This document shows positions 3,591 to 53,131 of a DNA stretch of 64,000 bases, one piece after another. The translations under genes and the position numbers were made by a program. Under the pieces are notes generated by a model that did not search any database, was not told the origin of the DNA, and worked only from the letters and a program-made list of their open reading frames with translations. Origin of the DNA: Lepisosteus oculatus (lineage: Eukaryota; Chordata; Actinopteri; Semionotiformes; Lepisosteidae); the NCBI RefSeq assembly GCF_040954835.1, contig NC_090699.1:14625817-14689816 (forward strand), read 5' to 3'. Each line of letters begins with the position of its first letter. Position 1 is the stretch's first letter.

Positions 3591-6500
3591 ATGGCGGCGT
3601 CCGTGGTCGACTGCGTGAGTGAGCTTTTTTATAGTGTTCTTTTCAGAGGAAGCAGATCAGAGCTGAATAGGTGAATGTGTGTGCAGACTTTTGAATACAG
3701 GCTGTATTGTTTCACGATACAGAGACGTTCTTCGGGTACCTCGCTGCGTGCCCGGCGTCCTTACCTGGACAAGTATCCTTGTGTGAAATCGATGCCTTTA
3801 ACTTATTACTTGGAATTGGCGACGCGACCTTCTGAACAGAGTAGTTTGATGGGGCAGTGGTTTATCGCGGTGCTTCTTGCGATCCCACGTGTGGCGATAC
3901 CCTAGTGCCCACACGCGGTCACTTCTCGCTATGCAGACAGTGATACTGGAGTCTGTTTCCCGCTGGGAGAAGACTAGCTCATTATCCATGTGGCACATTA
4001 CCCGGCTGGGTTAACTCGTGAAGAGCTGAGCTGGAATGAGAAATTGCAGACTCAACCACTCTACAGGACTCAATACAGTGTCTCACTGTCCAGTCAGTGT
4101 GTCTGTATGAACCCCTCTCTCTCAGTGCAGTGTTAATGTACTGGAGTGTCCAGTCAGTGTGTCTGTATGAACCCCTCTCTCTCAGTGCAGTGTTAATGTA
4201 CTGGAGTGTCCAGTCAGTCAGTGTGTCTGTATGAACCCCTCTCTCTCAGTGCAGTGTTAATGTACTGGAGTGTCCAGTCAGTGTGTCTGTATGAACCCCT
4301 CTCTCTCAGCGCAGTGTTAATGTACTGGAGTGTCCAGTCAGTCAGTGTGTCTGTATGAACCCCTCTCTCTCAGCGCAGTGTTAATGTACTGGAGTGTCCA
4401 GTCAGTCAGTGTGTCTGTATGAACCCCTCTCTCTCAGTGCAGTGTTAATGTACTGGAGTGTCCAGTCAGTCAGTGTGTCTGTATGAACCCCTCTCTCTCA
4501 GTGCAGTGTTAATGTACTGGAGTGTCCAGTCAGTCAGTGTGTCTGTATGAACCCCTCTCTCTCAGTGCAGTGTTAATGTACTGGAGTGTCCAGTCAGTGT
4601 GTCTGTATTAACCCCTCTCTCTCTGACAGGATTTGGTGGACACAGACCTGCCCGGTGCAGTCACTCTGTTGAACACTCTGACTGAGCAGGTGAGTGCTGG
4701 TTGTATCAGTACCTGCTCTTCCTCTGTGCTGCCCCTTCTCTTGATCAGCGTCAAGTGTCCCTTAGCAATGATATCTTACTACACAAGAGCTGTGAAGCGA
4801 AAGTTTGCTTCCCATGGAGTTACAATAAACCTTGGGAGTAGAGAGGGAATTCGATGTGAGATATTGCAGGAATCCCTTCACTTCTGGTGTCTGGCTATGG
4901 GTAATCTGCCGCCCCTGCTCTGCTGAGCGTGATGGACTGTTCTCTGTTTGTATGCCAGGTTGCTGCGGTTACCAGCCACGTCCAGGGTTTGATAAAGAGG
5001 GTCCGGGATGGGATGTACCAAACAGACAAGGTAAGGAGGGGAGGGGGGTTAGAGGTGTGCTTTGGAGAAAATTGGGAAGAAAAACAGGTTTTAGGCATGT
5101 CCTCCCTATGGAAAGGAACAAGTAAAGGTTTATTCCACACAAGGTTTCGGCTGGGGAGTCTTCTTCAGGTGTCATGTTCTCACTATGTAGAGCGAAGGTA
5201 TATTTGAGATGTAACATGGGTTTAATCCTCACAAAAGAGCCCATTGTACCCAGTTCTACTGACACAGTGGGAAGAGTACACATGCAAGTGTGCAAATAAA
5301 AAATAATGTGCACATCATTTAGAGCGGACTAGAATGTACAGTCTGTGTGTCTGCATTAACCCCCCTCTCTGTCCCTCAGGGGCTCAGTTTCCTGGACCTC
5401 CGGTACCACCTCCTCCTGTTTTACCTGCAGGATGTGACCCACCTAATCAGCTCCAAGACAGAGGGCCGGAGTCTGAGGGATAACAGCGCCATCCACAGGC
5501 TGCTCGCTGTCAGGACGGTAAAGCGCCCTTTTCTCCCTCCTGCTGTTTCTCTTGTCTCCTCTTCCTGCTGGAGGTCCTGAGCTCAGGGGTCAGGAGGGTG
5601 GTGGGAAGGCTCCTGTTGAGTCCTGATCCAACAGAACCACAGGCTGGAGTGGGGAACGGGCCCTGTAGCCTGGAGGGGACTGACTGACTCCGTGAATGTC
5701 TCTCTCCGTGTCTCAGGTGCTGGAGAAGATGCGCCCGATTGATCAGAAGCTGAGGTATCAGATTGACAAGCTGGTTCGCACTGCGGTGACAGGCAGCCTG
5801 GGTGAGTGCTCTCTGTGGTTCTGCCTCTTTCTGTACCATGATCTTTCCTCTCTGCTTGCTCTCTACCCAGTGTGTCTCTCTGTCCCTGGATTTCTCCCTC
5901 TCCCCCTGCCCTGCTGTTCTCAGTAACAGGTCTGTTTGTTTGATCATCAGGAGAAAATGACCCTCTGCAGTTGCGTCCAAGACCAGAGAATCTCATCAGC
6001 AAGGTATTGACCTATATCTCAGTGTCCAGTCAGTGTGTCTGTATGAACCCCTCTCTCTCAGTGCAGTGTTAATGTACTGGAGTGTCCAGTCAATCAGAGT
6101 GTCTGTATTAACACCTTAATTCTCACAGCTGAGTGAGTCTGAGGTCTCTGAAGATGAAGAAGAGAGACCAGAGGGTTCTGCAGAGCGAGAGCTGTCAGGT
6201 GTTGGTAGGAAGTACATCCCTCCGAAGATCGCACCAGTCCATTATGGTAAGTGCGTCTTTATTCTAGTTCTGGACAAATGCTGCGGTAATATAAAAGAAG
6301 CCTATTCTGCCAAAGCCAAACCACCTCTGTCTAACTCTGGTCTCAATACGGTTCACCTCATCCCCACTTACTGGACAGTTCTCAAGAGCAGCAGACCTGT
6401 CACTAAAACTGTACATGTGTGGACTGATGGTAGTATTGAGATGCTGAGAGGGTGTTTCCTTTGCACAGACTGGGAGATATTTCATAGCCTGGAGGTTAAT

Positions 6501-8324
6501 GAAGCAACAGAGGCTGTTCCAGACTACATTAAGTTCTGTGCGGACAGTGTCATGCCCAAGAAAAGCATAACCGTGTACCCAAACAATAAACCATATATAA
6601 CTAAGGATGTGATAGACTGCATCAACCACAAAAGACTCGCTTTTAAAAACCGGGATCAAGTGCAACTGAAATTACTGCAAAAAGAGCTGAAACTAAAACT
6701 CAGGAATGCAAGGCATCACCACAAGGAGACAATGGAGAGGGACTTTGAAACTGAACTCCAGGAGGCTGTGGCAAACAATGACAACAGTCACAAACATGAA
6801 TTCCTCAAGAAACAGCTTCCATACAGTGGATGAGCTGGCTAAAGCAAACGAGCTGAACGACTTCTATCTGAGGTTTGAGACGCAGGAAGTCTCTGGTGCA
6901 TGTGACAGTATATTAGATACTATCACAGCTCACCGTAGTGCTGGTAGGCTTGTAATAAGTCCGTGGACGACCACACAGTCTTTCAGGCACATATGTGCGA
7001 AAAAGGCAACAGGGCCCGATGGCATCACTGCCTCTCTTCTAAAAAAACTGCACTGAGGAGTTAACACCAGCATGGTGCCCCATCTTTCAGAAGTCTGTTG
7101 ACAATAATCGTGCCAATACCCAAAAAGCCCTGTCCCTCAGATAACAGTGATTACAGGCCGGTAATACTGACGTCTGTTGTGATGAAATGCTTTGAGAGGA
7201 TTATGGTATCTATGCTATGCTCAGAAGTGAACACTGGAGTGTCCAGTCAGTCAGTGTGTCTGTATGAACCCCTCTCTCTCAGTGCAGTGTTAATGTACTG
7301 GAGTGTCCAGTCAGTCAGTGTGTCTGTATGAACCCCTCTCTCTCAGTGCAGTGTTAATGTACTGGAGTGTCCAGTCAGTCAGTGTGTCTGTATGAACCCC
7401 TCTCTCTCAGTGCAGTGTTAATGTACTGGAGTGTCCAGTCAGTCAGTGTGTCTGTATGAACCCCTCTCTCAGTGCAGTACTGGAGTGTCCAGTCAGTCAG
7501 TGTGTCTGTATTAACCCCCCTCTCTCTCTCTTAGATGGGGATCTGACAGAGGCAGATAAGCAGAAAGGAGCAGCTGAGCGGTTGAAGCGCGTGGCTCTTA
7601 GGAGTTCTGTGATCCAGGAGCTCCGGGAGCAGTATTCCAGTGCTCCTGAGGAAATCCGGGAACGAAGAGACTTCCAGACAGACAGACAGCTGAGGGAGGA
7701 GCAGCACAGGTATAATACTTTCGTGAGAATGTGCGAAATTCTAAGAGACACTTGGAGTTGCTGTTCATTCTTGTTCTAAACCTTTAAGTTCATCATTGGA
7801 CAATTTGATTTGGAAACTATATTACAAAAATTGTGCATCCCAATGTGGGATCTCTTCCAAAGCCAGTGTGTCTGTATGAACCCCTCTCTCTCAGTGCAGT
7901 GTTAATGTACTGGAGTGTCCAGTCAGTCAGTGTGTCTGTATGAACCCCTCTCTCTCAGTGCAGTGTTAATGTACTGGAGTGTTCAGTCAGTCAGTGTGTC
8001 TGTATGAACCCCTCTCTCTCTCAGGCGGGAGTATGAAGAGTCCATGATGGTGCGTCTGAACGTATCACGAAAGGACCGCGTCTCAAAGAAGAGGAGCATG
8101 ATGGGAATGTCAGCGCAGCTGAACTCGATCACTCATTTTGGTGACATCAGCGCACTGACCGGTGAAGCACAGGTGAGACACAAGCTGTTATACCTCAAAG
8201 TAGAATCTGGGGGTGTGCAGTCAGTGCGTCTGTCTAAACCCTGTCTTTCTTTCAGGGCCTGGGGAATCCTCGCCCAAAGAAGAAAAAGAGGCTGCTGAAG
8301 AAAAAGAACAATAGAGGTGACTAA
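3591..8324 (+). CDS. ngdn: Neuroguidin (Sas10/Utp3 family), 10 exons
   Basis: Exons: 3591-3614, 4630-4689, 4959-5030, 5380-5517, 5717-5801, 5951-6003, 6129-6246, 7535-7709, 8025-8172, 8256-8324; all introns are GT-AG and frames join, giving 313 aa (human NGDN 315). Residues ~9-125 form the Sas10/Utp3 helical domain (TLLNTLTEQ, IKRVRDGMYQTDKGLSFLDL, LEKMRPIDQKLRYQIDKL). An acidic stretch EDEEERPE follows, then RKYIPPKIAPVHY, then the conserved C-terminal block YEESMMVRLNVSRK and SLTHF-like SITHFGDISALTG, and a lysine-rich tail (PKKKKRLLKKKN). The family acts in the nucleolar SSU processome (yeast Lcp5) for 18S rRNA maturation, and NGDN is also described as an eIF4E-binding translational regulator. 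The start at 3591 is chosen because it begins the conserved MAAS-type N-terminus in exon 1. Oddities: four acceptors (exons 2, 7, 8, 9) lie at the end of arrays of a ~60-bp unit that contains an acceptor, and a LINE fragment lies in intron 7. Confidence 0.95.
4083..4629 (+). repeat. Acceptor-containing minisatellite, NGDN intron 1
   Basis: About nine ~60-64-bp units. Each contains 'cagtgtgtctgtatgaaccc', 'cctctctctcag' and a spacer 'tgcagtgttaatgtactgga'. The last unit, with TATTAAC, is the real acceptor of exon 2 (AG at 4628-4629). The other eight look like complete 3' splice sites: branch-like TATGAAC, pyrimidine tract, AG. Confidence 0.95.
6004..6128 (+). repeat. NGDN intron 6, built almost wholly from two repeat units
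   Basis: This 125-bp intron starts gtattgac after exon 6 and ends cacag before exon 7. From about 6020 it is one full unit of the acceptor minisatellite plus a second, diverged unit (TATTAAC, then 'ccttaattctcacag') that supplies the real acceptor. Confidence 0.9.
6285..7232 (+). mobile_element. Rex1-like LINE ORF2 fragment in NGDN intron 7
   Basis: Translated pieces match the stretch between the endonuclease and the first reverse-transcriptase motifs of Rex1/CR1-group LINEs: LRGCFLCTDWEIF, NNKPYITKDVIDCINHKRLA, then ATGPDGITASLLKKL and IPKKPCPSDNSDYRPVILTS. The frame is broken in at least two places (after about 6830 and about 7056) and the polymerase active site and 3' end are missing. It stops abruptly where the acceptor minisatellite starts at about 7233. 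Not functional. Confidence 0.85.
7233..7534 (+). repeat. Acceptor-containing minisatellite, NGDN intron 7
   Basis: Four units of the same ~64-bp sequence as in intron 1, followed by the real exon-8 acceptor (TATTAACCCCCCTCTCTCTC TTAG, AG at 7533-7534). Confidence 0.95.
7863..8024 (+). repeat. Acceptor-containing minisatellite, NGDN intron 8
   Basis: Two units of the ~60-bp repeat plus the real exon-9 acceptor (TATGAACCCCTCTCTCTCTC AG, AG at 8023-8024). Here the functional acceptor is almost identical to the decoys. Confidence 0.95.
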
Positions 8325-10952: not shown

Positions 10953-11310
10953 CCATATCACTCTGAAACTCACAACTGTCAGCCCACTGGAGCTCAGCAG
11001 GTTAGAGCCTGGTCAGTAACCTGGAGAGGAGACTCCTGGGAAAGCTAAGGCTGCTGCTGGAAGAGGTGTTAGTGGGGCCAGCAGGGGGCGCTCACCCTGT
11101 GGTGTGTGTGGGTCCTAATGCCCCAGTATAGTGACAGGGACACTGTACTGTAAACAGGTGCCGTCCATCGGGTGAGATGTAAAACTGAGGTCCTGACTCT
11201 CTGTGGTGGAGGAGGGGATCCCCAATACCTGTAAAGCGGTTTGAGTGGAGTGTACAGAAAAGCGCTATATAAGTGCAATCAATTATTAATTATTATTATT
11301 AATACAAGTT
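10953..11310 (+). mobile_element. 5S rRNA-derived SINE (SINE3-like), copy 2
   Basis: The plus strand starts with 'ccatatcactctgaaactca', continues with GAGCTCAGCAGG and CTGGTCAGTAACCTGGAGAG (5S-like), and ends with 'gtaaagcggtttgagtggag', 'agcgctatataagtg' and a TTATTA-rich tail at about 11300. Compared with copies 1 and 3 it lacks about 200 bp of the middle. Confidence 0.85.
11078..11092 (+). promoter_or_regulatory. CTCF-like motif inside 5S-type SINE, copy 2
   Basis: CCAGCAGGGGGCGCT is an almost ideal CTCF core and lies at the position homologous to 1087-1101 and 58756-58770 in the other SINE copies. Confidence 0.4.
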
Positions 11311-12375: not shown

Positions 12376-12834
12376 ATAACCAAACAACTAAGGTATCAAT
12401 GTTATGGCAGGTAGCAAATGTCTGTTATTAGGCACCAAATAAAACAAGCTAGGAGGAAGAGCATTTAACACTGAGAATAGGCAGTTCTTTACGCAGAGAG
12501 CGGTAGGAGGGTGGAACAAGTCGTCCTACTGCGTTGCTGAAGCTGCTGCCCTAGCTTCTTCTAACAGAAGGCCAGTTGAGTTAGCTCCTCACTTCCAGGC
12601 AGGCCAATCCTCTGGCCTGTGACCTCCGTCGTGCTCGTAATCGAAGGGGGGTCTGGATCCAGCTGCAGGATTGGACTCCGGCCTCTCCGGGGGGCGCTCG
12701 TCTCCAGAGCCCCGCCCCCCGCTGCCTCGGGGAAGAGCCGCTTCCTCCTGGCCCTTGAGGAGCACAGGGCGGAGCCCAGCGCACAGATGAGTGAGCTCCT
12801 CCGCCACAGAGCCAGCAGAGAACACACTGCAGCT
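12376..12834. other. Unassigned intergenic
   Basis: A fragment near 12460-12550 ('gagagcggtaggagggtgga') resembles a recurring repeat also seen near 24550. The GC-rich block 12640-12800 shows no recognisable gene. Confidence 0.35.
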
Positions 12835-13067
12835 GCACTGCTGAACACCCTCACTGCTGACTACACTATACTGCTGAACACCCTCACTGCTGACTACGCT
12901 ATACTGCTGAACACCCTCAGTGCTGACCAGGCAGTACTGCTGAACACCCTCACTGCTGACTACACTATACTGCTGAACACCCTCACTGCTGACTACGCTA
13001 TACTGCTGAACACCCTCACTGCTGACTACACTATACTGCTGGACACCCTCACTGCTGACTGGAGCTG
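12835..13067. repeat. 33-bp minisatellite
   Basis: Seven units of a 33-bp sequence ('ctgctgaacaccctcactgc' + 'tgactacactata'). The unit length is a multiple of three, so frames stay open on both strands; this is not taken as coding. Confidence 0.95.
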
Positions 13068-13085
13068 TGTCAACATGGAGAGCCC

Positions 13086-13485
13086 AGGTGAGGAGACCCA
13101 CAGGGACAGTGGGAGCTCAGGGAGGGAGAGTTCTCAGGAGAGGAGACGGACAGGGACAATGGGAGCTCAGGGGGGGACAGGGCTCAGGAGAGACAGACAG
13201 GGACAGTGGGAGCTCAGGGAGGGACAGGGCTCAGGAGAGGAGACCGACAGGGACAGTGGGAGCTCAGGGAGGGACAGGGCTCAGGAGAGGAGACGGACAG
13301 GGACAGTGGGAGCTCAGGGGGGGACAGGGCTCAGGAGAGACAGACAGGGACAGTGGGAGCTCAGGGAGGGACAGGGCTCAGGAGAGGAGACCGACAGGGA
13401 CAGTGGGAGCTCAGGGAGGGACAGGGCTCAGGAGAGGAGACCCACAGGGACAGTGGGAGCTCAGGGAAGGACAGGGCTCACAGGC
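13086..13485. repeat. 44-50-bp minisatellite
   Basis: About eight G-rich units with the core 'gggacagtgggagctcaggg' + 'agggacagggctcaggagag', alternating between ~50- and ~44-bp forms. Confidence 0.95.
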
Positions 13486-14329
13486 TGTGCTGAGACAGAG
13501 CAGATCTCTAATATCTTTACATCTTCACAGCTCCTCTCTCAGCCCCTCCCAGCTGAAGAACTCTCAACAGCCCAAACACACTTTTACTTTCTGCTTCTCG
13601 GCGTCGAACTCTCTCACAGTGGCGCAAGAGACAGTCCTCCGCTCTGTTGCGCAAGCCGCTCTTAGGATAAAAACCGCGTGTCCCGGGACAGCCTGTCCTG
13701 CCGCATTCCTGCTCGGAAAGAGGGGGTGTCGCCTGAGGAGGACGCCCCCTTGTCGCGCGGTCCCGTAATTGGCCTGCAGCGGTATTGCGATCTGCGCCGC
13801 GGCCTGGGCTGTTTGGCGAGGCCATGTAGGGCCCTGGCCGGTCTCCCAGGGATTCTGGGATTAGAACGCGCTGTCGGGAAGAAGTATTGTTGGCCATTGT
13901 GCGGAAGGGACAAGCATTTCGAGCTCCTGAGTTGGCAAATGGACGACACTAACAGGCCAGGGCGTGGCCGTGGGCCGCCTCCGTCTCCATCAGCTTTCAT
14001 TAGCTGTTTTCTTAATTGTCACAACTCTTACAACCTTCAATTACACGGTTTTAAAAGCCTGTGGCCTTGCAGTCGTTAATTTCCTGCTCCTTGCCCGACG
14101 TCTGTCCTTCTTGAATGCCAGACCAGGCTGAAAGGAACCACAGGAGGGGTTAGGACGTCCTGCCAGGTTCATCCTGCACTTTGGGCAATGTGGTGAAAAT
14201 CCAGAGAGGGCACGCAGACTCCACACGGTGAGGCACTCCACGAATTACACCACCCCACTCTGAGCACTCACCCCTTATCTGTACCCTACCCGGCTGTCCA
14301 TTTTCTAACTGCTCCCTTCGCACACAGAC
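13486..14329. other. Unassigned region upstream of the TRIM gene
   Basis: GC-rich with no recognised exon or repeat of known family. It may hold the TRIM promoter and a non-coding first exon, because the start codon at 14622 lies 2 bp after an acceptor-like 'tgtcctctcag'. Confidence 0.3.
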
Positions 14330-14621: not shown

Positions 14622-17600
14622 ATGGCTGCCCTGCTGTCTGAAGAGGCGCTCCGATGTCTCATCTGCCTGGACCTGCTCGCCGATCCCGTGTCCACACCCT
14701 GCGGGCACAACTTCTGCGCCGCCTGCCTCGGCGGGCACTGGGGGGGCACGGCCGCGCCCCGGTGCCCGCAGTGCGGGGAGGCCTTCGCCGGCCCGCCCGA
14801 GCTGGCCGTGAACACCACCCTGAAGGAGATCGCCGAGCGGGTCCGCGGGGCCGGGGCGGGCGCGCCCTGCGACTTGTGCGCCGGGGGGCAGCTGCGGGCG
14901 GTGAGGTCCTGCCTCACCTGCCTGGCCTCGTACTGCAAGACGCACCTCCAGCCTCACCTCCGGGAGCCCGCTCTGAGGGAGCACAGCCTGGCCGACCCCG
15001 CCGACTTCCTGCGGAGGAGGAGGTGCGGGAGGCATCGCCAGCTCCTGGAGCTGTTCTGCAGGACCGACCAGGCCTGCATCTGCGCCCTGTGCGCCAACAC
15101 TGACCACAGGAGGCACAGCGTCATCCCCCTGGAGACAGAGTGCACAGCTAAGGAGGTGGGAGTGTGGGCTGTAGTGAAGTGCCCCACAGTTGTGAGTGGG
15201 CTGTAGTGAACTGCCCCACACAGTTGTGTGTGAGAATGAGGGCTGTAGTGAACTTTCCCACAGTTGTGTGTGAGAATGGGGGCTGCAGTGAACTGCCCCA
15301 CAGTTGTGTGTGAGAATGGGGGCTGTAGTGAACTGCCCCACAGTTGTGAGTAAGAATAAGGGCTGTAGTGAACTGCCTTATAGTTGTGAGTGGGTTGTAG
15401 TGAACTGCCTTACATTTGTGAGTGGGCTGTAGTGAACTGCCCCACAGTTGTGAGTAAGAATAAGGGCTGTAGTGAACTGCCTTATAGTTGTGAGTGGGTT
15501 GTAGTGAACTGTCTAACATTTGTGAGTGGGCTGTAGTGAACTGCCCCACAGTTGTGTGTGAGAATGAGGCTTTAGTGAACTGCCTCACAGTTGTGTATGA
15601 GGATGAGGGCTATAGTGAAATGCCCCACAGTTGTGAGTGTGTTGTAGTGAAGTTCTCTCCATTTGTGTGTGAGAATGAGGGTTATAGAGAACTGCCCCAC
15701 AGTTGTGAGTAAGAATTAGGGCTGCAGTGAACTGTCCCACAGTTGTGTGTGAGAATGAAGGCTGTAGTGGATTGTTCCACAGTTGTGTGTGAGAATGAGG
15801 GGTGTAATAAACTGCCCCAAAGTTGTGAGTGTGTTGTAGTGAACTGTTCTACAGTTGTGTGTGAGAATGAGGGCTGTAGTGAACTGTCCCACAGTTGTGT
15901 GTGAGAATGAGGGCTATAGTGAACTGCCCCACAGTTGTGTGTGAGAATGAGGGCTGTAGTGAACTGTTCCACAGTTGTGTGTGAGAATGAGGGCTGTAGT
16001 GAACTGCCCCACAGTTGTGTGAGAGAACGTTGTAGTGAATTGCTCCACAGTTGTGAGTGGATTGCAGTGAACTACCCCAGAGTTGTGGGTGGGTTTCGAT
16101 GAATTGCCCCTCAGTTGTGAGCAGGCTGTAGTGTGTAAGAATAAGAAGTGAACTGCCCTACTGTTGTGAGTGGGTTCCAGTGAATTGCCCCACAGTTGTG
16201 CATGAGAATGAGGGATGCAGTGAACTGAAATGCGATGTTCTGGAACATCCCACACATGAGCAATGAGGATCTGGAAACTCTAAACTATTGAGGCTGCCTG
16301 AATCGAAACATTAGCCAGGTCTTCTGCTGCTTTCATTTTTGATGTTGCTGACATCACTCTTCTTTCACGTTCATAACACAAAGACCACTTTCCAGTCCTT
16401 GGTGAGAATGGGACATTCCTTTTAAGTGTTACATATTCTTAATACTGTGACAGTTAAGTTTATCATGCTATATATTTCAGTATGTTCATTTTGTATTACT
16501 ACAAAGAAATAAGGTATTTGTAGATTTATTTTGCCACAGCTACAGTATACTATCATCACTTGCAAAAATACAACTGTTGCTCATTGATAGTTGTAGATCT
16601 TCTTCTACAAATACTGTGGAGGATTATTTATCTATAGAATTTTGTCTAGGTTTGTCACTGGGAAAAAACAGTGACCTGTTCCCCTGTTTTGTCAACAGAC
16701 TGAGCTGAGGAAGACTGAGGCAGAGGTACAACAGATGATCCAGGACAGACTGAAGAAGGTGGAGGAGATCAAACAGGCAGTGGAGCTCAGCAAAGTGAGT
16801 CCTGTCAATCCTTCTGAGTGGGGTACTGCAGGGCTCAGTACTGGGGTCACTGCTCTCTCTGAAACACAGTGAGTCCTGTCAGTCTTTGTGAGTGTCAGTC
16901 TTTCTGAGAGTGCTGGGGCCTCTGATCTTGTTTTACCAGTAAAATGGCATATACTGGTTCAGACATTTCTTTTTATTAAACACTTTAATCCAAATTGATT
17001 TAAATCTATCTTTGCTTTTTGTGATTTCATGTGAATCACATGTGAAGTGATCTGTGCTATCTACCAGAGCAATGTGAGTGAAGTGTTTAACTCTATGCCA
17101 GGATTTGAAACTACAACCTTCCAGGCAGGATCCCTGACCACTCTTCCACACTGCCGCAGAGATTGCTGCATCACATGCTAATTTCTCATTCATCCCATCT
17201 TCCTTGTCTCACTTCTTGTCCGGTCAGGCCTCCACACAGAGGGAGGCAGAGGACAGCCTGCAGGTCTTCTCCGCTCTGCTGCGCTCCATGGAGAGAACCC
17301 AGGCTCAGCTCATCGAGGTGTTCGAGCAGAAGCAAAAAATGGCAGAGAGAAGAGCTGAGGGGCTCATTAAGAAGCTGGAGCAGGAAATCGCTGCGCTACA
17401 GAGGAGAAGCACGGAGCTGGAGCAGCTCTCCCACACCGAGGACTACCTCCACTTCCTCCAGGTCAGCTGTCAGAGTGCCGAGAGGCAAAAAGCACTTTCA
17501 CTGAGAAACATCACCAGCTACACACTGCAACATAGGATGACAGTGAGATTTCCCACGGGCTTTTGACAGAGTCCCACAGGAAGCACAGATCCCCAGACCG

Positions 17601-25041: not shown

Positions 25042-28000
25042 ATGGCCGTCAACCTGCCCTGCCACTTCCAGACTTACTACAGGGAGAACCTGCGGGACCT
25101 CCTGGTGTGAGTGCTCCCTCTTCCTTTTGCCTCCGCTCCTCGGTTCGGTAACGGCGCCGCGCGGCGGCACCGGCCGCCCGTGCGCGATGCCTCCTCACCG
25201 GGCCGCGCGCGGGGGGGGGGGCGCTGTCTGTGTCGGCAGGAAGGTGCCCTCGGCGGGGGACGAGGCTCTGGCCCCGGCCACGCGCCTGCTGGAGAAGAGA
25301 CGGGAGGCTGCCGAGGTTCACCAGGCCATGGAGGCGCAGAGGGAGGTGAGGTGACCTCCATTCGCCCCTCTTTTCACGAATCGCGCCGATGAGCCCGCAG
25401 CAGGGTTACCGGCTCATCGGTCAGTCCCAGGACATTTCAGCCCCACAGAGCTTCTAGTTTCCAGCGGCTCGCAAATGTCTTCATTCGCCCCCGTTGACAA
25501 GGTGCAGCTGGCGAGCACTGCTGGGGCCCTGGGCTCGCCTCCTGGGGTGCTGTCCGTGTGGAGTTTGCGTGTCCTCCCCGTGGTCATGTGGGTGCATCCT
25601 CTGGCGGCTCCGGTTTCCTCCTGCAGACGGGAGACGTGCTGGCGGGTCAGTGTGTGTCCCGTGACGGACAGGTGTCCCCCTCCGGGGTGTGTCCTGCCTC
25701 GTGCCCAGTGCTTGCTGGGATAGGCTCCGCCCCGGGTTCGTTCAGGTCCGTCGGCCCTGCCTTCCTTCAGGCGCACGGGGGGGGCTGGGGCTGGACCAGG
25801 GGGACACCGGGGCGCCGACAGAAGTATCGGTGCAGAGAGGAGTCGGTGACGGGGCTGCCCTGCCTCTTCGTCACTGTCCTGCCAGCGCACGGGGTGTCCG
25901 CCCTCATCACGCGTCTCCCTGCTCAGGAGTTCGAGCTCTCTTTGCGGACCCTGCGCGTGCGCAGAGACGAGCTGAGGGAGAAGGAGGTCCGGATGAAGGA
26001 GTACCTGCGCAAGTTTGACAACTTTCTCAAGGTCAGAAGAACATAGATACAGTCTGTATTCACCCCTCTCTCTCAGTGCAGTGTTAATGTACTGGAGTGT
26101 CCAGTCAGTCAGTGTGTCTGTATGAACCCCTCTCTCTCAGTGCAGTGTTAATGTACTGGAGTGTCCAGTCAGTGTGTCTGTATGAACCCCTCTCTCTCAG
26201 TGCAGTGTTAATGTACTGGAGTGTCCAGTCAGTGTGTCTGTATGAACCCCTCTCTCTCAGTGCAGTGTTAATGTACTGGAGTGTCCAGTCAGTCAGTGTG
26301 TCTGTATGAACCCCTCTCTCTCAGTGCAGTGTTAATGTGCTGGAGTGTCCAGTCAGTCAGTGTGTCTGTATGAACCCCTCTCTCTCAGTGCAGTGTTAAT
26401 GTGCTGGAGTGTCCAGTCAGTCAGTGTGTCTGTATGAACCCCTCTCTCTCAGTGCAGTGTTAATGTACTGGAGTGTCCAGTCAGTCAGTGTGTCTGTATG
26501 AACCCCTCTCTCTCAGTGCAGTGTTAATGTACTGGAGTGTCCAGTCAGTCAGTGTGTCTGTATGAACCCCTCTCTCTCAGTGCAGTGTTAATGTACTGGA
26601 GTGTCCCGTCAGTCAGTGTGTCTGTATGAACCCCTCTCTCTCAGTGCAGTGTTCATGTACTGGAGTGTCCTGTCAGTGTGTCTGTATGAACCCCTCTCTC
26701 TCAGTGCAGTGTTAATGTACTGGAGTGTCCAGTCAGTCAGTGTGTCTGTCTGAACCCCTCTCTCTCAGTGCAGTGTTAATGTACTGGAGTGTCCAGTCAG
26801 TGTGTCTGTATGAACCCCTCTCTCTCAGTGCAGTGTTAATGTACTGGAGTGTCCAGTCAGTCAGTGTGTCTGTATGAACCCCTCTCTCTCAGTGCAGTGT
26901 TAATGTACTGGAGTGTCCCGTCAGTGTGTCTGTATGAACCCCTCTCTCTCAGTGCAGTGTTAATGTACTGGAGTGTCCAGTCTGTCAGTGTGTCTGTATG
27001 AACCCCTCTCTCTCAGTGCAGTGTTAATGAACTGGAGTGTCCAGTCAGTCAGTGTGTCTGTATGAACCCCTCTCTCTCAGTGCAGTGTTCATGTACTGGA
27101 GTGTCCAGTCAGTCAGTGTGTCTGTATGAACCCCTCTCTCTCAGTGCAGTGTTAATGTACTGGAGTGTCCAGTCAGTGTGTCTGTATGAACCTCTCTCTC
27201 TCAGTGCAGTGTTCATGTACTGGAGTGTCCCGTCAGTGTGTCTCTCTCAGGACAGTGAGATGAAACGCCTGCGGGCCGTGCGGAAGGCCGCGCAGGAGCG
27301 GGAGCTGGCGAGCCAGAAGCAGGCGGACCTGTGCGCGCTGCAGGAGGAGATGGCGGCCCTGCGGCGGGAGAGGGACAGGCTGCAGCGGCGGGTGCAGAGG
27401 AACGCCTGCTATCCGCAGTACCTGGAGAGGGTGGTGCAGGGCTCTGACCAGGTGCGCGGGGGGGCTGGGAGAGAGGCCGGTGTTCCTATTGTTTGGAGAG
27501 AGAGGGGTTCACAGGCCTGCTTGATTACAGTGTCTCAGGGCCACTTCAGCTCTCATGCCTGGCAACGCTGGCACTGTGGCTGTGTCCGGTCTGCTCCGAT
27601 TGTGGTGTGAAATGCCCTCAGCAGCGCTGAGATCAGACAGCCTTGCAGCTCCCCTCTGTCGCCGACGCCGGTGAGCAGCGGTGGCTCTCTCAGTTCCAGG
27701 AGGGACGCCAGGTCATGTCCCGCTACGACACGCTGGTGCTGACCCGCGAGGACCTGCTGCAGACGGCCCAGGAGAACCAGGAGAGCACCGAAAGGGCCCG
27801 GGCCCACCTGGCCCGGTTCACCGAGCAGAGTAACGACACCATCATGCAGTACAACAACATCCTGGCACTGCTGCAGAGCAAACTGGACCAAGCCAGGGCA
27901 GAGAGCCTGCTCTGGGTAAGACAGAGACACAGAGAGACAGAGAGACAGAGAGACAGAGAGACAGAGAGACAGAGAGCCTGCTCTGGGTAAGACAGAGACA

Positions 28001-29797
28001 CAGAGAGACAGAGAGACAGAGAGACAGAGAGACAGAGAGCCTGCTCTGGGTAAGACAGAGACACAGAGAGACAGAGAGACAGAGAGACAGAGAGCATGCT
28101 CTGGGTAAGACAGAGACACAGAGAGACAGAGAGAGACAGAGAGACAGAGAGCATGCTCTGGGTAAGACAGAGACACAGAGAGACAGAGAGAGACAGAGAG
28201 ACAGAGAGCATGCTCTGGGTAAGACAGAGACACAGAGAGACAGAGAGCCTGCTCTGGGTAAGACAGAGACACAGAGAGACAGAGAGACAGAGAGACAGAG
28301 AAACAGAGAGCATGCTCTGGGTAAGACAGAAACACAGAGAGACAGAGAGAGACAGAGAGACAGAGAGCATGCTCTGGGTAAGACAGAGACACAGAGAGAC
28401 AGAGAGACAGAGAGACAGAGAGCCTGCTCTGGGTAAGACAGAGAGAGAGACAGAGAGCCTGCTCTGGGTAAGACAGAGACAGAGAGAGACAGAGAGCATG
28501 CTCTGGGTAAGACAAAGACAGAGAGAGACAGAGAGCATGCTCTGGGTAAGACAGAGACACAGAGAGACAGAGAGCCTGCTCTGGGTAAGACAGAGACAGA
28601 GAGCCTGCTCTGGGTAAGACAGAGACAGAGAGAGACAGAGAGCATGCTCTGGGTAAGACAGAGACACAGAGAGACAGAGAGCCTGCTCTGGGTAAGACAG
28701 AGACAGAGAGCCTGCTCTGGGTAAGACAGAGACAGAGACACAGAGAGCATGTTCTTGGTAAGACAGAGATAGACAGAAAGAGGCAGAAAACAATGTCTGC
28801 ACACCGACTGGACACTAAAATACCTTCATACTGGGAGACAATGAGTGGACACTACAGTACACTGAAACTGGGAGACAGTGACTGGACAATATAGTACACT
28901 GGTCCCGAGAAGACAGAGGGTTGATACACTCTTCACTCCTTTTCCATCCACCTCCAGGAGTCCAGATGGGCTCACATCCAGAACACCGCAGCCAAGAAGA
29001 CCCTGCTGCTGGGGACAATAAAGATGGCCACCCTGAACCTGTACCAGATCGTGTGCAAGAGGGCCCGGGACACTGGGGAGGAGCCCATCGCCCTGGAGGA
29101 CACCCCCCGACAGCTGCAGAAGGTACTGAACCCCCCTCCCTCCTCTTCAACAGTCAGGGTACCAGCCGGTCTTCGTCTCTCAGTCCCTGTGGTAGTGATC
29201 AACTAAGACTGGACAAGATCGGACACTGGAGACAGGACAGGTCTGCGCTGCCTCTGAACTGCCATGGCTTGGGCTGTTTGGACAGCTGATCGGTTCTGGG
29301 ACAGGTGCGCGATTCGGCAGCTTGAACACAGCAGCCACAGGAAGGAGAGAGGTCAGTGGGGCGGAGCGGTGGCTCTGTGGCTCAGGATCTGTGTCTGTGA
29401 CTGGAAGGTTGCTGGTTCAAATCCCACAGCCGGCAGGGGAATTCTACCCTATTGGGCCCCTGAGCGAGGCCCTTCACCCCAGCTGCTCCAGGGGTGCTGT
29501 ATACATGGCTGACCCTGCGCTCTGACCCCCAGCTTCTCTCCCTGTCTGTGTGTCTCATGGAGAGCAAGCTGGGGTCTGTGAAAAGATGAATTCCTAATGC
29601 AGGAGATTGTAGATGGCCAATAAAGCAACATTATTATTATTATTATTATTATGAAACTGAGGCGCAGCTGCCTGCTGATTCCCTCTTCCCGTCCATTCCA
29701 GATCCAGACCTATCTGACGGATCTGATGTCCGTCTGGGAGGAACTAAGCAAACCTGACAGCCAGGCTGGGACCACAACGCACGGCTCACATAGATAG
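25042..29797 (+). CDS. CCDC42/CFAP73-family axonemal coiled-coil protein, 7 exons
   Basis: Exons: 25042-25106, 25240-25345, 25927-26031, 27251-27451, 27694-27915, 28958-29122, 29702-29797; all GT-AG, frames join, 319 aa (human CCDC42 316). N-terminus [20 protein letters not shown], then [40 protein letters not shown] and a long charged coiled coil (residues ~40-240). Last comes the signature [20 protein letters not shown] + [12 protein letters not shown], nearly identical to human CCDC42 and less like CFAP73, so CCDC42 or a fish paralogue is favoured. The family belongs to the modifier-of-inner-arms group (Chlamydomonas MIA2) of motile cilia and sperm flagella. Intron 3 is mostly an array with about 20 complete acceptor-like units. 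The real exon-4 acceptor (tgtgtctctctcag) lacks the TATGAACCCC part those units have. Exon 5 ends in a donor (CTCTGG/gtaag) that is repeated about 17 times downstream. Confidence 0.93.
25490..25745 (+). repeat. Common interspersed repeat in CCDC42-like intron 2
   Basis: Motif order 'tggagtttgcgtgtcctccc', 'ctccggtttcctcctgcaga', 'gctgggataggctccgcccc'. The opposite orientation is seen at 14330-14460 and 30195-30490. Confidence 0.7.
26056..27250 (+). repeat. Acceptor-containing minisatellite, CCDC42-like intron 3
   Basis: About 20 units of the same ~60-64-bp sequence as in NGDN introns 1, 6, 7 and 8, 18 kb away, ending exactly at the exon-4 acceptor (AG at 27249-27250). Nearly every unit has TATGAACCCCTCTCTCTCAG. 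The terminal, functional one is shortened to 'gtcagtgtgtctctctcag'. Confidence 0.95.
27916..28770 (+). repeat. Donor-containing minisatellite, CCDC42-like intron 5
   Basis: Units of variable length (about 30-70 bp): 'gagagcctgctctgggtaag' followed by CAGAGA-type simple repeat. The first occurrence is the true end of exon 5 (CTCTGG, 27910-27915, donor at 27916). About 17 later copies reproduce the last exon bases and the GTAAG donor. The last is altered ('gttcttggtaag'). Confidence 0.95.
29358..29652 (+). mobile_element. tRNA-derived SINE, copy 4, in CCDC42-like intron 6
   Basis: Starts GGGGCGGAGCGGTGGCTCTG, B-box-like 'ggttgctggttcaaatccc', body as in the other copies, tail 'ggccaataaagcaac' then (ATT)n. 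Confidence 0.85.
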
Positions 29798-35308: not shown

Positions 35309-37364
35309 TCAGTTACAGAGGTCAGTCTTGCAGCAGGAACCCCTGGCGGTCCATCCCATCTTCAGCATGGCGCATTCTGAGGACTTGCCACACCTCCGGA
35401 AGTAACCCGCTGCAGAGAGACACAGAGAGGGGTGGTTAGACTGCACTCTCGCTGGGCTGAGCCATTTCCCTGACCTTCAAGACAGCACACACAGCTGACA
35501 CGAGGAGTATCAAACAGATACACTGATATATTAAAGAGACATTCTGAAGATTAACTGTAAGAGACACACACTGTCTGTATTAACTGATAGAGACACACTA
35601 TATTAGCTGATAGAGACACACTGTTTGTATTAGCTGATAGACACACACTGTCTATATTAACTGATAGAGACACACTGTATTAACTGATGGAGACACACTG
35701 TATTAACTGATGGAGAAACACTGTGTGTATTAGCTGATAGTCACACAGTCTGTATTAACTGATGGAGACACTGTATTAGCTGATAGACACACACTGTATT
35801 GGCTGATAGAGACACACTGTATTAGCTGATAGAGACACACTGTCTGTATTAGCTGATAGTCACACTGTATTAACTGATAGAGACACACCGTCTGTATTAG
35901 GTGATAGAGATACACTGTCTGTATTAGGTGATAGAGACACACTGACCAAGCCAGCAGACAGACCCAGTATCTTGACTTACAGAAAGGAGGGCGGAAGATC
36001 CCAGACACACAGACGGTGTTACCACCCATGCACGTCTGCACTGTACAGCTCCCAGGGACCGCACCCTGTCCCTGACCCATGCAGTTGTTACACCTCAGGG
36101 CCTCTCCTGCAGGCCAGGGGGACAGAGTCAAGAGGAGAGAGTCTGGTGAGCAGGTATGGCCTCTCTCTCATCGCTCCACCTCATCACTGAATCGCTTCTT
36201 TCTACTTCATTTCTGCCAACACCTGGCACCCTAAAAGAGTATGCTTCATCTCTCTCCCTTCTTCCTTGTTTGTGAGGTTTTCTTCAGTACTCAGACACTG
36301 AATTGACTAATGGAATTTTAATTGTATCAAAAGATTCATGTGAGGCAAAAGTATGGAATTTCTGCTTTTACTTCTCGATAACTGCATGTGTACATGTTAA
36401 ACCATGGAAAAACTAACGTTTCTGTGTTCAATGCCCCCAATTTTCCCCCAGTGCTGTTCAAAGTTGTTTGAAACTCTTAATGACGGCCATTGATCCTGTC
36501 TGAAATGACCAGTCTGTCTGTGAGATCAGTGTTATTGATAGTCGGAGATGACCAGTCTGTCTGTCTGTGTGATCAGTGTTATTGATCCTGTCTGAAATGA
36601 CCAGTCTGTCTGTGAGATCAGTGTCATTGATCCTGTCTGAAATGACCAGTCTGTCTGTGAGATCAGTGTCCTCGATCCTGTCTGAAATGACCAGTCTGTC
36701 TGTGAGATCAGTGTCCTCGATCCTGTCTGAAATGACCAGTCTGTCTGTGAGATCAGTGTCATTGATCCTGTCTGAAATGACCAGTCTATCGGTGTGATCA
36801 ATGTTATTGATAGTCGGAGATGACCAGTCTGTCTGTCTGTGAGATCAGTGTCATTGATCCTGTCTGAAATGACCAGTCTGTCTGTGAGATCAGTGTCATT
36901 GATCCTGTCTGAAATTAACAGTCTGTCTGTGAGATCAGTGTCATTGATCCTGTTTGAAATGACCAGTCTAACGATGTGATCAATGTTATTGATAGTCGGA
37001 GATGACCAGTCTGTCTGTCTGTGAGATCAATGTCATTGATCCTGTCTGAAATGACCAGTCTGTCTGTCTGTGAGATCAATGTCATTGATCCTGTCTGAAA
37101 TGACCAGTCTGTCTGTGAGATCAGTGTTATTGATCCTGTCTGAAATGACCAGTCTGTCTGTGAGATCAGTGTCCTTGATCCTGTCTGAAATGACCAGTCT
37201 GTCTGTGCGAGGAGAACTGTTGTCAGTACCTGCTGTGTTGATAAAAGGGGCAGTGAGTGACCACTGTGAATAACACAGAGTCACATGAAGCTCGGAGACA
37301 GAGTGAACTCACCGCAGCTCAGAGACAGCAGCAGGACGGCAGCGAGGAACAGCAGCGACTTCAT
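35309..37364 (-). CDS. Secreted Ly6/uPAR three-finger protein, 3 coding exons
   Basis: Coding exons (minus): 37364-37313, 36106-35981, 35409-35309; a non-coding 5' exon ends at 37684 and the ATG exon starts at 37394. Frames join, giving 92 aa. Residues 1-18 are a signal peptide (MKSLLFLAAVLLLSLSCG). The mature part has ten cysteines in Ly6 order: LRCNNC, GSC, QTC, TVC, RRC, SEC, then GSCCKTDLCN ending at the stop. The terminal CCxxDLCN is the family hallmark. No hydrophobic GPI tail follows, so a soluble extracellular protein is expected, like SLURP-type members; receptor and role unknown. A TATA box precedes the 5' exon. Intron 1 holds a 45-bp minisatellite and intron 2 a ~27-bp one. Two further signal-peptide exons (52453, 63777) show recent duplication. 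Confidence 0.88.
35565..35945. repeat. ~25-30-bp minisatellite in Ly6 intron 2
   Basis: Irregular units of 'ctgatagagacacactgtct' + 'gtattag', about 13 copies, directly next to the exon-2 donor. Confidence 0.9.
36484..37205. repeat. 45-bp minisatellite in Ly6 intron 1
   Basis: About 16 units of 'tgatcctgtctgaaatgacc' + 'agtctgtctgtgagatcagt' + 'gtcat'. Unit length is a multiple of three, so open frames occur on both strands. Shorter versions lie at 52608-52870 and from 63937. Confidence 0.95.
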
Positions 37365-37764: not shown

Positions 37765-39370
37765 CCCAAAAAAAACTCTGCTGGTAAAGAAAAAAGGCAA
37801 CATAAAAACAAAACAGTCAAAACAGGATTACAGCCAAGGGGGCGCCCCTGGTGATGGAAACCACGCCCCTCCATCCACAGAAGATCCACTATGCCCGCCC
37901 CCCGCGGTGAGAACCACACCCCTTGTCACCGAGGAGGATTAAAAAAGGAATTTAATAATAATAATATTAAAAAGCCATTTGATTCAAATCGCTTTGGCAC
38001 AATCTATGGGTACTTTGCCCTTGAGTTGCGAAGCTTTTAAATTCTGTGGGTCCTTTATGCAGATCGCTCAACTGGAGGACTTCTGTAGGAGCACCATTAT
38101 TTAAAAGATTTCCAAAACTATAGCTTTCATAGAAAAAGTGAGAGTATCTTCACGCATTCCTCTTCATTATACTTCACACTTAGTTTAAACTACTGAGTGA
38201 AGTAGGTTTGAAACACAGAGGAAGGGGCAGCTCTTTAGCCGGTTGTGGGCCTGTGGGTCAAAGTCAACAACTGTCCAACTGTGTTCTTGATCATTATATT
38301 TGGGCTTCTTTAAAAACAACATGATTTAGTTTTAAAGAAGGATTTAAACCAGATTGATAGATTATTAACTACAGTAGCTAGACTGAGTGAATGGCCTCCT
38401 GTTGTTTGTAACCCTTTTAATGGTTTTAGATTTCAGGCACTATTGATAAGTTAACAGCCACCCCATACTGCACAGCACAGCATAATAGCTATGTCTGAAA
38501 ATCAAGAAAACAGGAAAGAAAAGTAAAAGTTAATCATCACATGTCACAGCCCCTTTCTAATGTGGCTGATCACACTGTGAGCATCACAGAAACAGTGAAA
38601 AATACTGTACAGTAACTCTGCAAAAAGTTTCACCCTGAGCTTAATGTTGATTCTCATAGAAAGAGGGTGCCTGGTGTTTCTTTTCCACATCTCAGAAACA
38701 CAGCTAATTCAGAATGTCCACTCCAGATTAGGAACGTTCAAAGAATTGAATTGTTCTAATGATCTGACTAGAACACAGAAGCACAATCACATCATCCACG
38801 TCCTGCCTTCACTGCACTGGCTTCTCATATGACACCACATACATCTCAAGGGTCTGTGCTCACATACGAAGACAGCTTAGCCACCTACGTGATCTTACGT
38901 TTCCGTAAGCATCACTAACACTGTTCCGGTCAAAGGATGCTGTGTATCTCAAAACCCGTCAAATGAACAGAAATGTGCAGGTGGCAGAGCTCTCAGTCAC
39001 ACAGCCCTTAAACTGGGGAATGACTTACCGAACCTTGTTGAGGATGCAAAATCTGTTTCAGCCTCTTTCTCGAACCTGAGACCATCCTGTATTCTCTCTC
39101 ACCACTGACCACCTGATCTCCACAGAGCTCGTATCTACAGCTTCTCTACCCATCCTGTATTCTCTCTCACCACTGACCATCTGATCTCCACAGAACTCAT
39201 ATCTACAGCTCCTTCATTCATCCTGTATTCTCTCTCACCACTGACCACCTGATCTCCACAGTCATTGGTGTAGAATACAGCGTGGGGCCCACCCTGCCCT
39301 CTGGAGACACAGATACGACAGATATGACAGTGAGCGCACCACCGGAGAAAATACAGCCCCTCGCCAGAGA
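37765..39370. other. Ly6 upstream duplicated sequence, no gene seen
   Basis: Shared in reverse with 50300-52060 and 61790-63380. It includes short tandem copies near 39060-39270 ('catcctgtattctctctcac', ~70-bp unit, three copies here). No protein recognised; the short frame at 38644-38832 (…ISETQLIQNVHSRLG…) is kept in all three copies only because they are recent duplicates. Confidence 0.5.
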
Positions 39371-50310: not shown

Positions 50311-52069
50311 GGCGAGGGGCTGTATTTTCTCCGGTGGTGCGCTCACTGTCATATCTGTCGTATCTGTGTCTCCAGAGGGCAGGGTGGGCCCCACGCTGTA
50401 TTCTACACCAATGACTGTGGAGATCAGGTGGTCAGTGGTGAGAGGGAATACAGGATGAATGAAGGAGCTGTAGATATGAGCTCTGTGGAGATCAGGGGGT
50501 CAGTGGTGAGAGAGAATACAGGATGAATGAAGGAGCTGTAGATATGAGTTCTGTGGAGATCAGATGGTCAGTGGTGAGAGAGAATACAGGATGGGTAGAG
50601 AAGCTGTAGATACGAGCTCTGTGGAGATCAGGTGGTCAGTGGTGAGAGAGAATACAGGATGGTCTCAGGTTCGAGAAAGAGGCTGAAACAGATTTTGCAT
50701 CCTCAACAAGGTTCGGTAAGTCATTCCCCAGTTTAAGGGCTGTGTGACTGAGAGCTCTGCCACCTGCACATTTCTGTTCATTTGACGGGTTTTGAGATAC
50801 ACAGCATCCTTTGACCGGAACAGTGTTAGTGATGCTTACGGAAACGTAAGATCACGTAGGTGGCTAAGCTGTCTTCGTATGTGAGCACAGACCCTTGAGA
50901 TGTATGTGGTGTCATATGAGAAGCCAGTGCAGTGAAGGCAGGACGTGGATGATGTGATTGTGCTTCTGTGTTCTAGTCAGCTCATTAGAACAATTCAAGT
51001 CTTTGAACGTTCCTAATCTGGAGAGGACATTCTGAATTAGCTGTGTTTCTGAGATGTGGAAAAGAAACACCAGGCACCCTCTTTCTATGAGAATCAACAT
51101 TAAGCTCAGGGTGAAACTTTTTGCCGAGTTACTGTATAGTATTTTTCACTGTTTCTGTGATGCTCACAGTGTGATCAGCCACATTAGAAAGGGGCTGTGA
51201 CATGTGATGATGAACTTTTATTGGCCCAATGATAAGGAGTTCTGTTTATCTGGCAATAGTTAATAAGTAATTCCAGTAATTTCTGGGTTTCCTGTGTTTC
51301 ATTTCAGCTTCACATTGGTTCTGAAAGTGAACACTTATCCAAGACGTACTGTTTATTGGGCATGTTGAAACTGGTTCTTAGCCTGAAATCTAAAACCATT
51401 AGAAGGGTTACAAACAACAGGAGGCCATTCACTCAGTCTAGCTACTGTAGTTAATAATATATCAATCTGGTTTAAATCCTTCTTTAAAACTAAATCCTGT
51501 TGTTTTTAAAGAAGCCCAAATATAATGATCAAGAACACAGTTGGACAGTTGTTGACTTTGACCCACAGGCCCACAACCGGCTAAAGAGCTGCCCCTTCCT
51601 CTGTGTTTCAAACCTACTTCACTCAGTAGTTTAAACTAAGTGTGAAGTATAATGAAGAGGAATGCGTGAAGATACTCTCACTTTTTCTACGAAAGCTATA
51701 GTTTTGGAAATCTTTTAAATAATGGTGCTCCTACAGAAGTCCTCCAGTTGAGCGATCTGCATAAAGGACCCACAGAATCTAAAAGCTTCGCAACTCAAGG
51801 TCAAAGTACCCATAGATTGTGCCAAAGCTATTTGAATCAAATGGCTTTTTATTATTATTATTATTAAATTCCTCTTTTAATCCTCCTCGGTGACAAGGGC
51901 TGTGGTTCTCACCGCGGGGGGCGGGCATAGTGGATCTTCTGTGGCTGGAGGGGCGTGGTTTCCATCACCAGGGGCGCCCCCTTGTCTGTAATCCTGTTTT
52001 GACTTTTTTGTTTTTATGTTGCCTTTTTTCTTTACCAGCAGAGTTTTTTTGGGGGGGCAGAAGCTACAG

Positions 52070-52422: not shown

Positions 52423-53131
52423 ACCCCAATATTGCTGTCGTACTCCAACAAGATGAAGTCGCTGCTGTTCCTCGCTGCCGTCCTGCTGCTGTCTCTGAGC
52501 TGCGGTGAGTTCACTCTGTCTCTGAGCTTCATGTGACTCTGTGTTATTCACAGTGGTCACTCACTGCCCCTTTTATCAACACAGGAGGTACTGACAACAG
52601 TTCTCCTCGCACAGACAGACTGGTCATTTCAGACAGGATCAAGGACACTGATCTCACAGACAGACTGGTCATTTCAGACAGGATCAATAACACTGATCTC
52701 ACAGACAGACTGGTCATTTCAGACAGGATCAATGACATTGATCTCACAGACAGACAGACTGGTCATCTCCGACTATCAATAACATTGATCACACCGATAG
52801 ACTGGTCATTTCAGACAGGATCAATAACACTGATCATGTAGACAGACTGGTCATTTCAGACAGGATCAATGGCCGTCATTATGAATTTCAAACAACTTTG
52901 AGCAACACTGGGGGAAAATTGGGGGCACTGAACACAGAAATGTTAGCTTTTCCATGGTTTAACATGTACACATGCAAGGAAGAAGGGAGAGAGATGAAGC
53001 ATACTCTTTTAGGGTGCCAGGTGTTGGCAGAAATGAAGTAGAAAGAAGCGATTCAGTGATGAGGTGGAGTGATGAGAGAGAGGCCATACCTGCTCACCAG
53101 ACTCTCTCCTCTTGACTCTGTCCCCCTGTCG
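52423..53131 (+). pseudogene. Ly6 copy 2, signal-peptide exon only
   Basis: The exon 52423-52504 with ATG at 52453 encodes MKSLLFLAAVLLLSLSCG, identical to copy 1, with donor at 52505. Intron 1 continues with the 45-bp minisatellite and ends abruptly at 'gactctgtccccctg' (53131), 14 bp before where exon 2 would start. Exons 2 and 3 are absent; unrelated TIR-flanked DNA follows. It can still be transcribed in principle but cannot encode a three-finger domain from sequence seen here. Confidence 0.85.
52608..52870. repeat. 45-bp minisatellite, Ly6 copy 2 intron 1
   Basis: About six units, reverse complement of those at 36484-37205, where there are about 16; copy number has changed since duplication. 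Confidence 0.9.

Follow-up and report, generated by a model that had tools for sequence, protein, structure and literature searches.

Minisatellites over intron-exon boundaries, known as mirages, have been described in amphioxus in Adh3, the globin genes BflGb6 and BflGb9, and PGBD5 (PMC3087553, PMC3902484). In the excerpted text of these reports, the authentic boundary of a mirage lies at the edge of the cluster, the edges escape homogenisation, and the reported mRNAs are regularly spliced. On the donor side, excerpts on human ABCA7 intron 18 (25 bp) and F7 intron 7 (37 bp) describe variable number tandem repeats (VNTRs) whose first unit is the real donor and whose further units are copies; in F7 the most upstream donor alone is used, by oriented scanning (PMC5954066, PMC6627357). 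Here we describe a 64,000-nucleotide stretch of Lepisosteus oculatus DNA (contig NC_090699.1, positions 14,625,817 to 14,689,816; hereafter the window). In the reading to which we give a modest preference, a splice-acceptor minisatellite sits at the 3' ends of seven introns in two genes of the window, NGDN and CFAP73, and in five of them it has been amplified in tandem ahead of the functional copy. The element resembles the rare minisatellites at lancelet splice sites, in a form that seems to spread.

As in the excerpted mirage descriptions, a splice signal is part of the tandem units of NGDN and CFAP73, and the edge unit, which holds the authentic boundary, escapes homogenisation. Mirages are described there as including exon sequence and as occurring locus by locus, whereas the unit examined here is intronic and forms five arrays and two single copies in two genes of a genome of vertebrate type. 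The arrays act like a mirage, as far as the excerpts define one, but differ from it on two points: their unit holds no exon sequence, and it is not confined to a single locus. The human VNTRs, in the excerpts, are donor-side and belong to one gene each; the NGDN and CFAP73 acceptor array is their mirror case, shared between genes. No acceptor minisatellite shared between genes was found among the literature matches listed, judged by titles and the starts of abstracts, which is not proof of absence, and the letters of the unit (two core versions, one linker stretch and their reverse complements) had no match in the paper texts searched. The best reading is a minisatellite like a lancelet mirage, spread between the acceptors of two genes by conversion-like exchange.

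Acceptor arrays in NGDN and CFAP73

NGDN was modelled with ten coding exons and GT-AG introns throughout, giving an uninterrupted translation of 313 residues. The protein aligned with human neuroguidin (7mq8_NC; E 1.8e-96) over residues 10-309 and contained the Pfam domain Sas10_Utp3 (E 1.8e-15). The second gene, CFAP73, was identified by matches to 8j07_j3 (E 1.1e-49) and Pfam DUF4200 (E 6.5e-25), where the protein search used 312 residues and omitted the final 7. It lies downstream of NGDN on the same strand, with the arrays of the two genes about 18 kb apart. Between them lies a TRIM gene with RING, B-box and SPRY exons (Pfam), which were positioned by eye on the basis of protein and Pfam matches; a short TRIM exon is possibly missing from the model. 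The coding regions and acceptor elements are as follows.

3591..8324, forward strand: NGDN coding region (exons 3591-3614, 4630-4689, 4959-5030, 5380-5517, 5717-5801, 5951-6003, 6129-6246, 7535-7709, 8025-8172 and 8256-8324)
4087..4629, forward strand: acceptor minisatellite of NGDN intron 1, with 8 inner units and a terminal unit that is the acceptor (Tandem Repeats Finder, direct unit split)
5330..5379, forward strand: single diverged acceptor module at the end of NGDN intron 3 (score 50 against a control maximum of 31 among 545; reached by 0 of 5000 shuffles)
6021..6128, forward strand: array of NGDN intron 6, with 1 inner unit and a diverged terminal unit (blastn, unit split)
7233..7534, forward strand: acceptor minisatellite of NGDN intron 7, with 4 inner units and a terminal unit (Tandem Repeats Finder, unit split)
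7864..8024, forward strand: acceptor minisatellite of NGDN intron 8, with 2 inner units and a terminal unit (Tandem Repeats Finder, unit split)
8207..8255, forward strand: single diverged acceptor module at the end of NGDN intron 9 (score 44 against the same control maximum of 31 among 545; reached by 0 of 5000 shuffles)
25042..29797, forward strand: CFAP73 coding region, modelled by eye with 7 coding exons (exon 6 ending at 29122; protein and Pfam support)
26051..27250, forward strand: acceptor minisatellite of CFAP73 intron 3, with 19 inner units (26051-27236) and a shortened terminal unit, ending at the acceptor 27250|27251

A sequence-only reading of this DNA had claimed that arrays in NGDN introns 1, 6, 7 and 8 run up to the acceptor and stop precisely there, and the coordinates and unit split bear this out: each of these arrays closes with a unit truncated at the AG directly before the exon. 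The fifth array, in CFAP73 intron 3, goes beyond that reading. All five stop at the AG of the modelled acceptor, so that the edge unit holds the authentic splice boundary. Two of the introns consist almost wholly of units, as NGDN intron 6 is made up of 17 nt on the donor side, one inner unit and the terminal unit, and CFAP73 intron 3 of 19 nt on the donor side followed by array units up to the acceptor. In total, the five arrays hold 39 units, of which 34 are inner and 5 terminal. The seven introns show two states, with a single module in NGDN introns 3 and 9 and an array in NGDN introns 1, 6, 7 and 8 and CFAP73 intron 3.

The last unit is probably the acceptor in use, as judged from protein homology. 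The alignment with human neuroguidin was free of gaps at the NGDN junctions of introns 3, 6, 8 and 9, and the CFAP73 intron 3 acceptor was backed by a gap-free protein alignment (FLK|DSE).

Unit anatomy and sharing between genes

The acceptor module is about 50 nt long and reads ACTGGAGTGTCCAGTCAGTCAGTGTGTCTGTAT[T/G]AACCCCTCTCTCTCAG, or, in short form, ACTGGAG...GTGTCTGTAT[T/G]AACCCCTCTCTCTCAG, with a branch-like site, a pyrimidine tract and an AG. Inner units are composed of this module and a 14-nt linker, TGCAGTGTTAATGT, ahead of the next module, and are 60 or 64 bp long. The unit is without exon sequence, as the AG is followed by the linker. Identical cores were found in 30 of the 34 inner units, whereas none of the five terminal units has the common core unchanged, with that of intron 8 departing from it by one extra CT only. 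The arrays begin at differing 5' ends, while the 3' end is constant at the AG.

From this comparison, it was noted that one exact 64-mer is common to NGDN introns 1, 7 and 8 and CFAP73 intron 3, that one 60-mer is common to NGDN intron 1 and CFAP73 intron 3, and that the linker is identical between the arrays of the two genes. The earlier proposal that one acceptor sequence serves most introns of one gene holds for six of the nine NGDN introns, but the sequence is not private to that gene, being present in CFAP73 intron 3 as well. This sharing bears on a purely local origin, in which each intron duplicated its own acceptor independently and the similarity reflects shared acceptor constraint. 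In the excerpts, each published mirage or donor VNTR is treated as a single-locus case, and the TRIM and CFAP73 donor arrays detailed below are private to their genes, both as such an origin would have it. The identical linker and the exactly shared 64-mer already contradict it unless a common source is admitted, and 13 other acceptors in the window are unlike the module; we regard independent local duplication as highly improbable.

We also considered that the arrays are a functional splicing regulator, which might, for instance, exert kinetic control or coordinate NGDN and CFAP73 splicing through U2AF or PTB-like proteins bound to the repeated pyrimidine tracts. In favour of this account, changes were rarer in the pyrimidine core than in the linker (3/924 versus 16/1122, p 0.01), in counts made by hand over non-independent units that took in neither the CFAP73 edge unit nor variants differing in length by 4 nt; the same difference also counts towards the acceptor minisatellite that we prefer. 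The number of extra units spans 0 to 19 among the seven introns, which argues against it, and a regulatory role appears quite unlikely.

Specificity of the module for acceptors

We assessed how closely the module is tied to splice acceptors across the window. In blastn searches of two units against the 64-kb window, matches with E <= 0.002 fell at seven places only (NGDN introns 1, 3, 6, 7, 8 and 9 and CFAP73 intron 3), each ending at a modelled acceptor and all on one strand; at this threshold no match was found in the window away from acceptors or on the minus strand. The single copies were matched at 5339-5370 (87.5%, E 3e-6) and 8218-8258 (78%, E 0.002). When the module was aligned with its AG anchored, NGDN introns 1, 3, 6, 7, 8 and 9 scored 74, 50, 68, 76, 91 and 44, and CFAP73 intron 3 scored 37.

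The module was carried by 7 of the 20 modelled acceptors, which come from three genes only (NGDN, CFAP73 and TRIM), with scores of 37-91. The other 13 (3 in NGDN, 5 in CFAP73 and 5 in TRIM) scored 20 or less. As controls, 545 sites with a pyrimidine tract and YAG, taken from both strands outside the module places, reached a maximum of 31, and none of 4489 YAG controls exceeded this value. For NGDN introns 3 and 9, the shuffles randomised the part 5' of the pyrimidine tract, and none equalled the real score. The diverged single versions that the sequence-only reading had placed before exons 4 and 10 are, on these scores and blastn matches, true homologues of the arrayed unit. The acceptors of NGDN introns 2, 4 and 5 did not rise above background in the AG-anchored alignment; a candidate module at intron 4 was rejected, as its score of 18 was reached by 1094 of 5000 shuffles. 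The gene search behind these models was partial (69 and 63 open reading frames (ORFs) were Pfam-scanned, from 216 ORFs of at least 70 aa plus a few others), and genes with short exons may be missed by it. Outside the window, the unit pattern gave 0 matches in the viral contigs collection and 0 in the genome contigs collection.

These results bear on the possibility that the unit is a dispersed minisatellite or transposon-derived repeat, common genome-wide, which landed in introns and whose built-in AG took over as acceptor. Identical unit copies in two genes would fit such a repeat, and the window is rich in other minisatellites. At the start of NGDN exon 8, after intron 7, two extra residues are present relative to human neuroguidin, as a takeover could yield, and intron 7 is the one junction where the array may have shifted the exon start. 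Against a dispersed repeat, every match at the blastn threshold in this one window lies on an acceptor and on the plus strand, and a random takeover would usually shift exon starts, whereas the junctions of NGDN introns 3, 6, 8 and 9 and CFAP73 intron 3 are gap-free against the human proteins. Because of the two-residue gap at the intron 7 junction, we lowered our confidence in a spreading acceptor minisatellite slightly and raised that in a dispersed repeat, which we nonetheless consider doubtful.

Origin and proposed spread of the module

The sequence-only reading had offered two origins, namely acceptors that were duplicated and homogenised, or introns that share an introner-like origin. 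The first agrees with what was found, as the last unit is the acceptor, the inner units are near-identical within and between arrays, and single and arrayed states occur together. The second proposes that the introns were created by insertion of an acceptor-carrying element. Introners were surveyed across 3,325 genomes, and the excerpt of that survey reports them from only two groups within animals and land plants, with no pattern of gain in vertebrates (PMC9860276). According to the same excerpt, some introners carry a 3' splice site only, and the presence of similar sequence in many introns is a further likeness to the locus described here (PMC9860276). NGDN intron 6 and CFAP73 intron 3, which are nearly all units after their short donor sides, would also fit an inserted element.

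The introns of NGDN and CFAP73 differ from introners, as the excerpt portrays them, in having neither a shared 5' end nor a visible target-site duplication, and they probably existed before the module arrived. Among the 5' parts of the seven introns, no shared sequence was detectable in 21 pairs (first 100 nt at most), a comparison of low power for NGDN intron 6 (17 nt) and CFAP73 intron 3 (19 nt). The best pair, introns 7 and 8, had a score reached by 7 of 200 shuffles. No duplicated target site was visible by eye at the seven introns. Because the 5' parts appear unrelated and target-site duplications are not visible, whole introns were probably not inserted as copies. The intron positions of both genes are, we presume, old in vertebrates, and an introner-like origin seems very improbable.

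The simplest account is acceptor-to-acceptor copying in existing introns, followed by tandem growth and exchange. The module would have reached the acceptors of pre-existing introns by ectopic gene conversion or template switching, without creating introns; the arrays would then have expanded by slippage or unequal exchange, with units traded between the genes. Exchange at the DNA level that halts where the unrelated exon begins would leave a constant 3' end and varying 5' ends; a bolder alternative with the same expectation is that intron RNA served as the template.

A broader version proposes a self-spreading acceptor, in which, in this lineage, a unit holding a complete 3' splice site moves genome-wide between existing introns and overwrites their acceptors, with the inner copies silenced by a branch change and a self-masking hairpin. 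Arrays that close on the final nucleotide of the intron but open at different points would be expected if the ends of excised-intron RNA were the template. We hold this broader version to be unlikely.

Branch sites, hairpins and the choice of AG

The inner AGs raise the matter of how splicing would be confined to the last unit. In NGDN, 30 inner CAGs (two per inner unit) were tested, and the use of 29 of them would lead to a premature stop (26 inside the added stretch and 3 further on), while the use of one would give an in-frame extension. Because nearly all inner AGs would introduce stop codons, selection would be expected to purge arrays whose inner AGs get used. We propose that splicing falls on the last unit as inner units would have a weaker branch site (TATGAAC, with the U at -2 lost) and an AG that folds with a linker absent from the terminal unit.

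Branch sites follow the rule yUnAy. At the branch position, two before the presumed branch A, G is present in 33 of the 34 inner units (TATGAAC), and the only inner unit with T stands at the 5' edge of the CFAP73 array. The terminal units of NGDN introns 1, 6 and 7 have T, as does the intron 3 single copy; the intron 8 terminal unit has G, and the CFAP73 terminal unit is without a branch site. T at this position therefore marks 3 of 4 scorable terminal units versus 1 of 34 inner units (Fisher p 0.002, with units that are not independent). The sequence-only reading had given the units as holding TATGAAC or TATTAAC. Both are indeed present, but TATGAAC is the internal form, while TATTAAC is nearly confined to terminal units and absent from the CFAP73 one. 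Most likely, T is the older state of the branch position, and G arose later and spread through the inner units of the arrays in both genes.

Pairing was predicted with a span of 120 nt. The inner AG was predicted paired in all 34 inner units, with a probability of at least 0.74 (mean 0.97), compared to means of 0.58 for 239 control YAGs and 0.62 for ten other real acceptors of NGDN and CFAP73. The terminal AGs of NGDN introns 6 and 8 and CFAP73 intron 3 had values of 0.09, 0.16 and 0.47. When the linker was shuffled, 8 of 500 versions paired the inner AG as well as the real linker. The fold of a single unit was more stable than expected (z -2.5; 2 of 200 shuffles equally stable), and that of the last two intron 1 units had z -2.1; the single copies of introns 3 and 9 gave z 0.4 and -0.7. 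On these predictions, inner copies may be muted by the T-to-G change together with a linker hairpin that pairs the unit's own AG.

Several points weigh against muted inner copies and, more generally, against the preferred reading of a spreading acceptor minisatellite. Intron 8 has TATGAAC at its own acceptor, and the heptamer is thus not dead. Hairpin masking is weakly supported, because pairing is also predicted for two of the five terminal AGs (0.97 in intron 1 and 0.91 in intron 7), and because 29 of 500 shuffled linkers set the inner AG apart from the terminal one as well as the real linker does. The fold at the end of the CFAP73 array is unremarkable (z -0.96). Clean hairpin masking as the sole discriminator between AGs was weakened by these pairing results. 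The inner units are copies of one sequence, and counts over them come near to one observation; with one sequence repeated, and introns 1 and 7 contrary, the case for muting is suggestive only. As for the junctions, use of the last unit is drawn from protein homology that brackets the acceptors of NGDN introns 3, 6, 8 and 9 and CFAP73 intron 3. The NGDN intron 7 acceptor (7534|7535) opens an exon 8 whose start is a two-residue insertion relative to human neuroguidin, and the human-aligned range begins just past the intron 1 junction (residues 8/9).

Donor-side minisatellites and other repeats

We further examined minisatellites at donors in the window, where two were found.

15156..16210, forward strand: donor-side minisatellite of TRIM intron 1, starting on the first intron base (3' limit by eye)
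27892..28773, forward strand: donor-side minisatellite of CFAP73 exon 5/intron 5, with 19 copies of the exon 5 end and GTAAG donor, across the boundary 27915|27916 (Tandem Repeats Finder limits 27919-28773)

Both are private to their genes. In the TRIM array, the local alignment of the intron 1 donor with an inner unit begins at the GT at 15156 (score 64), and the units of about 32/40 bp hold 16 strong donor-like hexamers (GTGAGT or GTAAGA). By starting on the intron GT, this array is a close match to the donor VNTRs of ABCA7 and F7 as the excerpts describe them. The unit of the CFAP73 intron 5 array includes exon sequence, which makes it a mirage in the strict sense, and use of any of its 18 downstream donors would bring in a stop, either within the sequence retained or in exon 6. 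At the same boundary, the PDB 9fqr chain for CFAP73 is longer by 6 residues, as though a donor 18 nt downstream were used.

Five of the six intronic arrays with free room touch a splice site, against 0.34 expected, and 0 of 200,000 random placements reached five, in a test whose array limits were drawn after inspection and which excluded the unit-filled introns NGDN 6 and CFAP73 3. In this test the intron 7 array was taken to start at 7232, and the TRIM donor was set at 15157 rather than 15156. The exception is the array in the last TRIM intron.

Three further observations concern the rest of the window. Two minisatellite families each occur twice (36488-37207 and 52610-52870; 39082-39261 and 50415-50661), with units that look reverse-complementary by eye, as in an inverted duplication. 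A 5S rRNA-like sequence on the minus strand at 58778-58896 (Rfam, 53.6 bits) overlaps a repeat with copies near 792-1212 and 10968-11207 and is possibly a 5S-derived short interspersed element (SINE). An open frame of 361 aa at 12580-13662 consists partly of 33-bp and about 50-bp repeats and has only a weak, sub-threshold PIP5K match.

Implications for intron-end evolution

The arrays of NGDN and CFAP73 suggest that splice acceptors can act as repeats exchangeable between genes without intron gain. Such exchange would let intron ends evolve in a way that neither introners nor locus-bound mirages represent. The arrays also form a natural test of how the correct AG is chosen below up to 19 near-perfect upstream decoys. 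In NGDN, unequal exchange between introns 6, 7 and 8 is a predicted source of deletion of exons 7 and 8.

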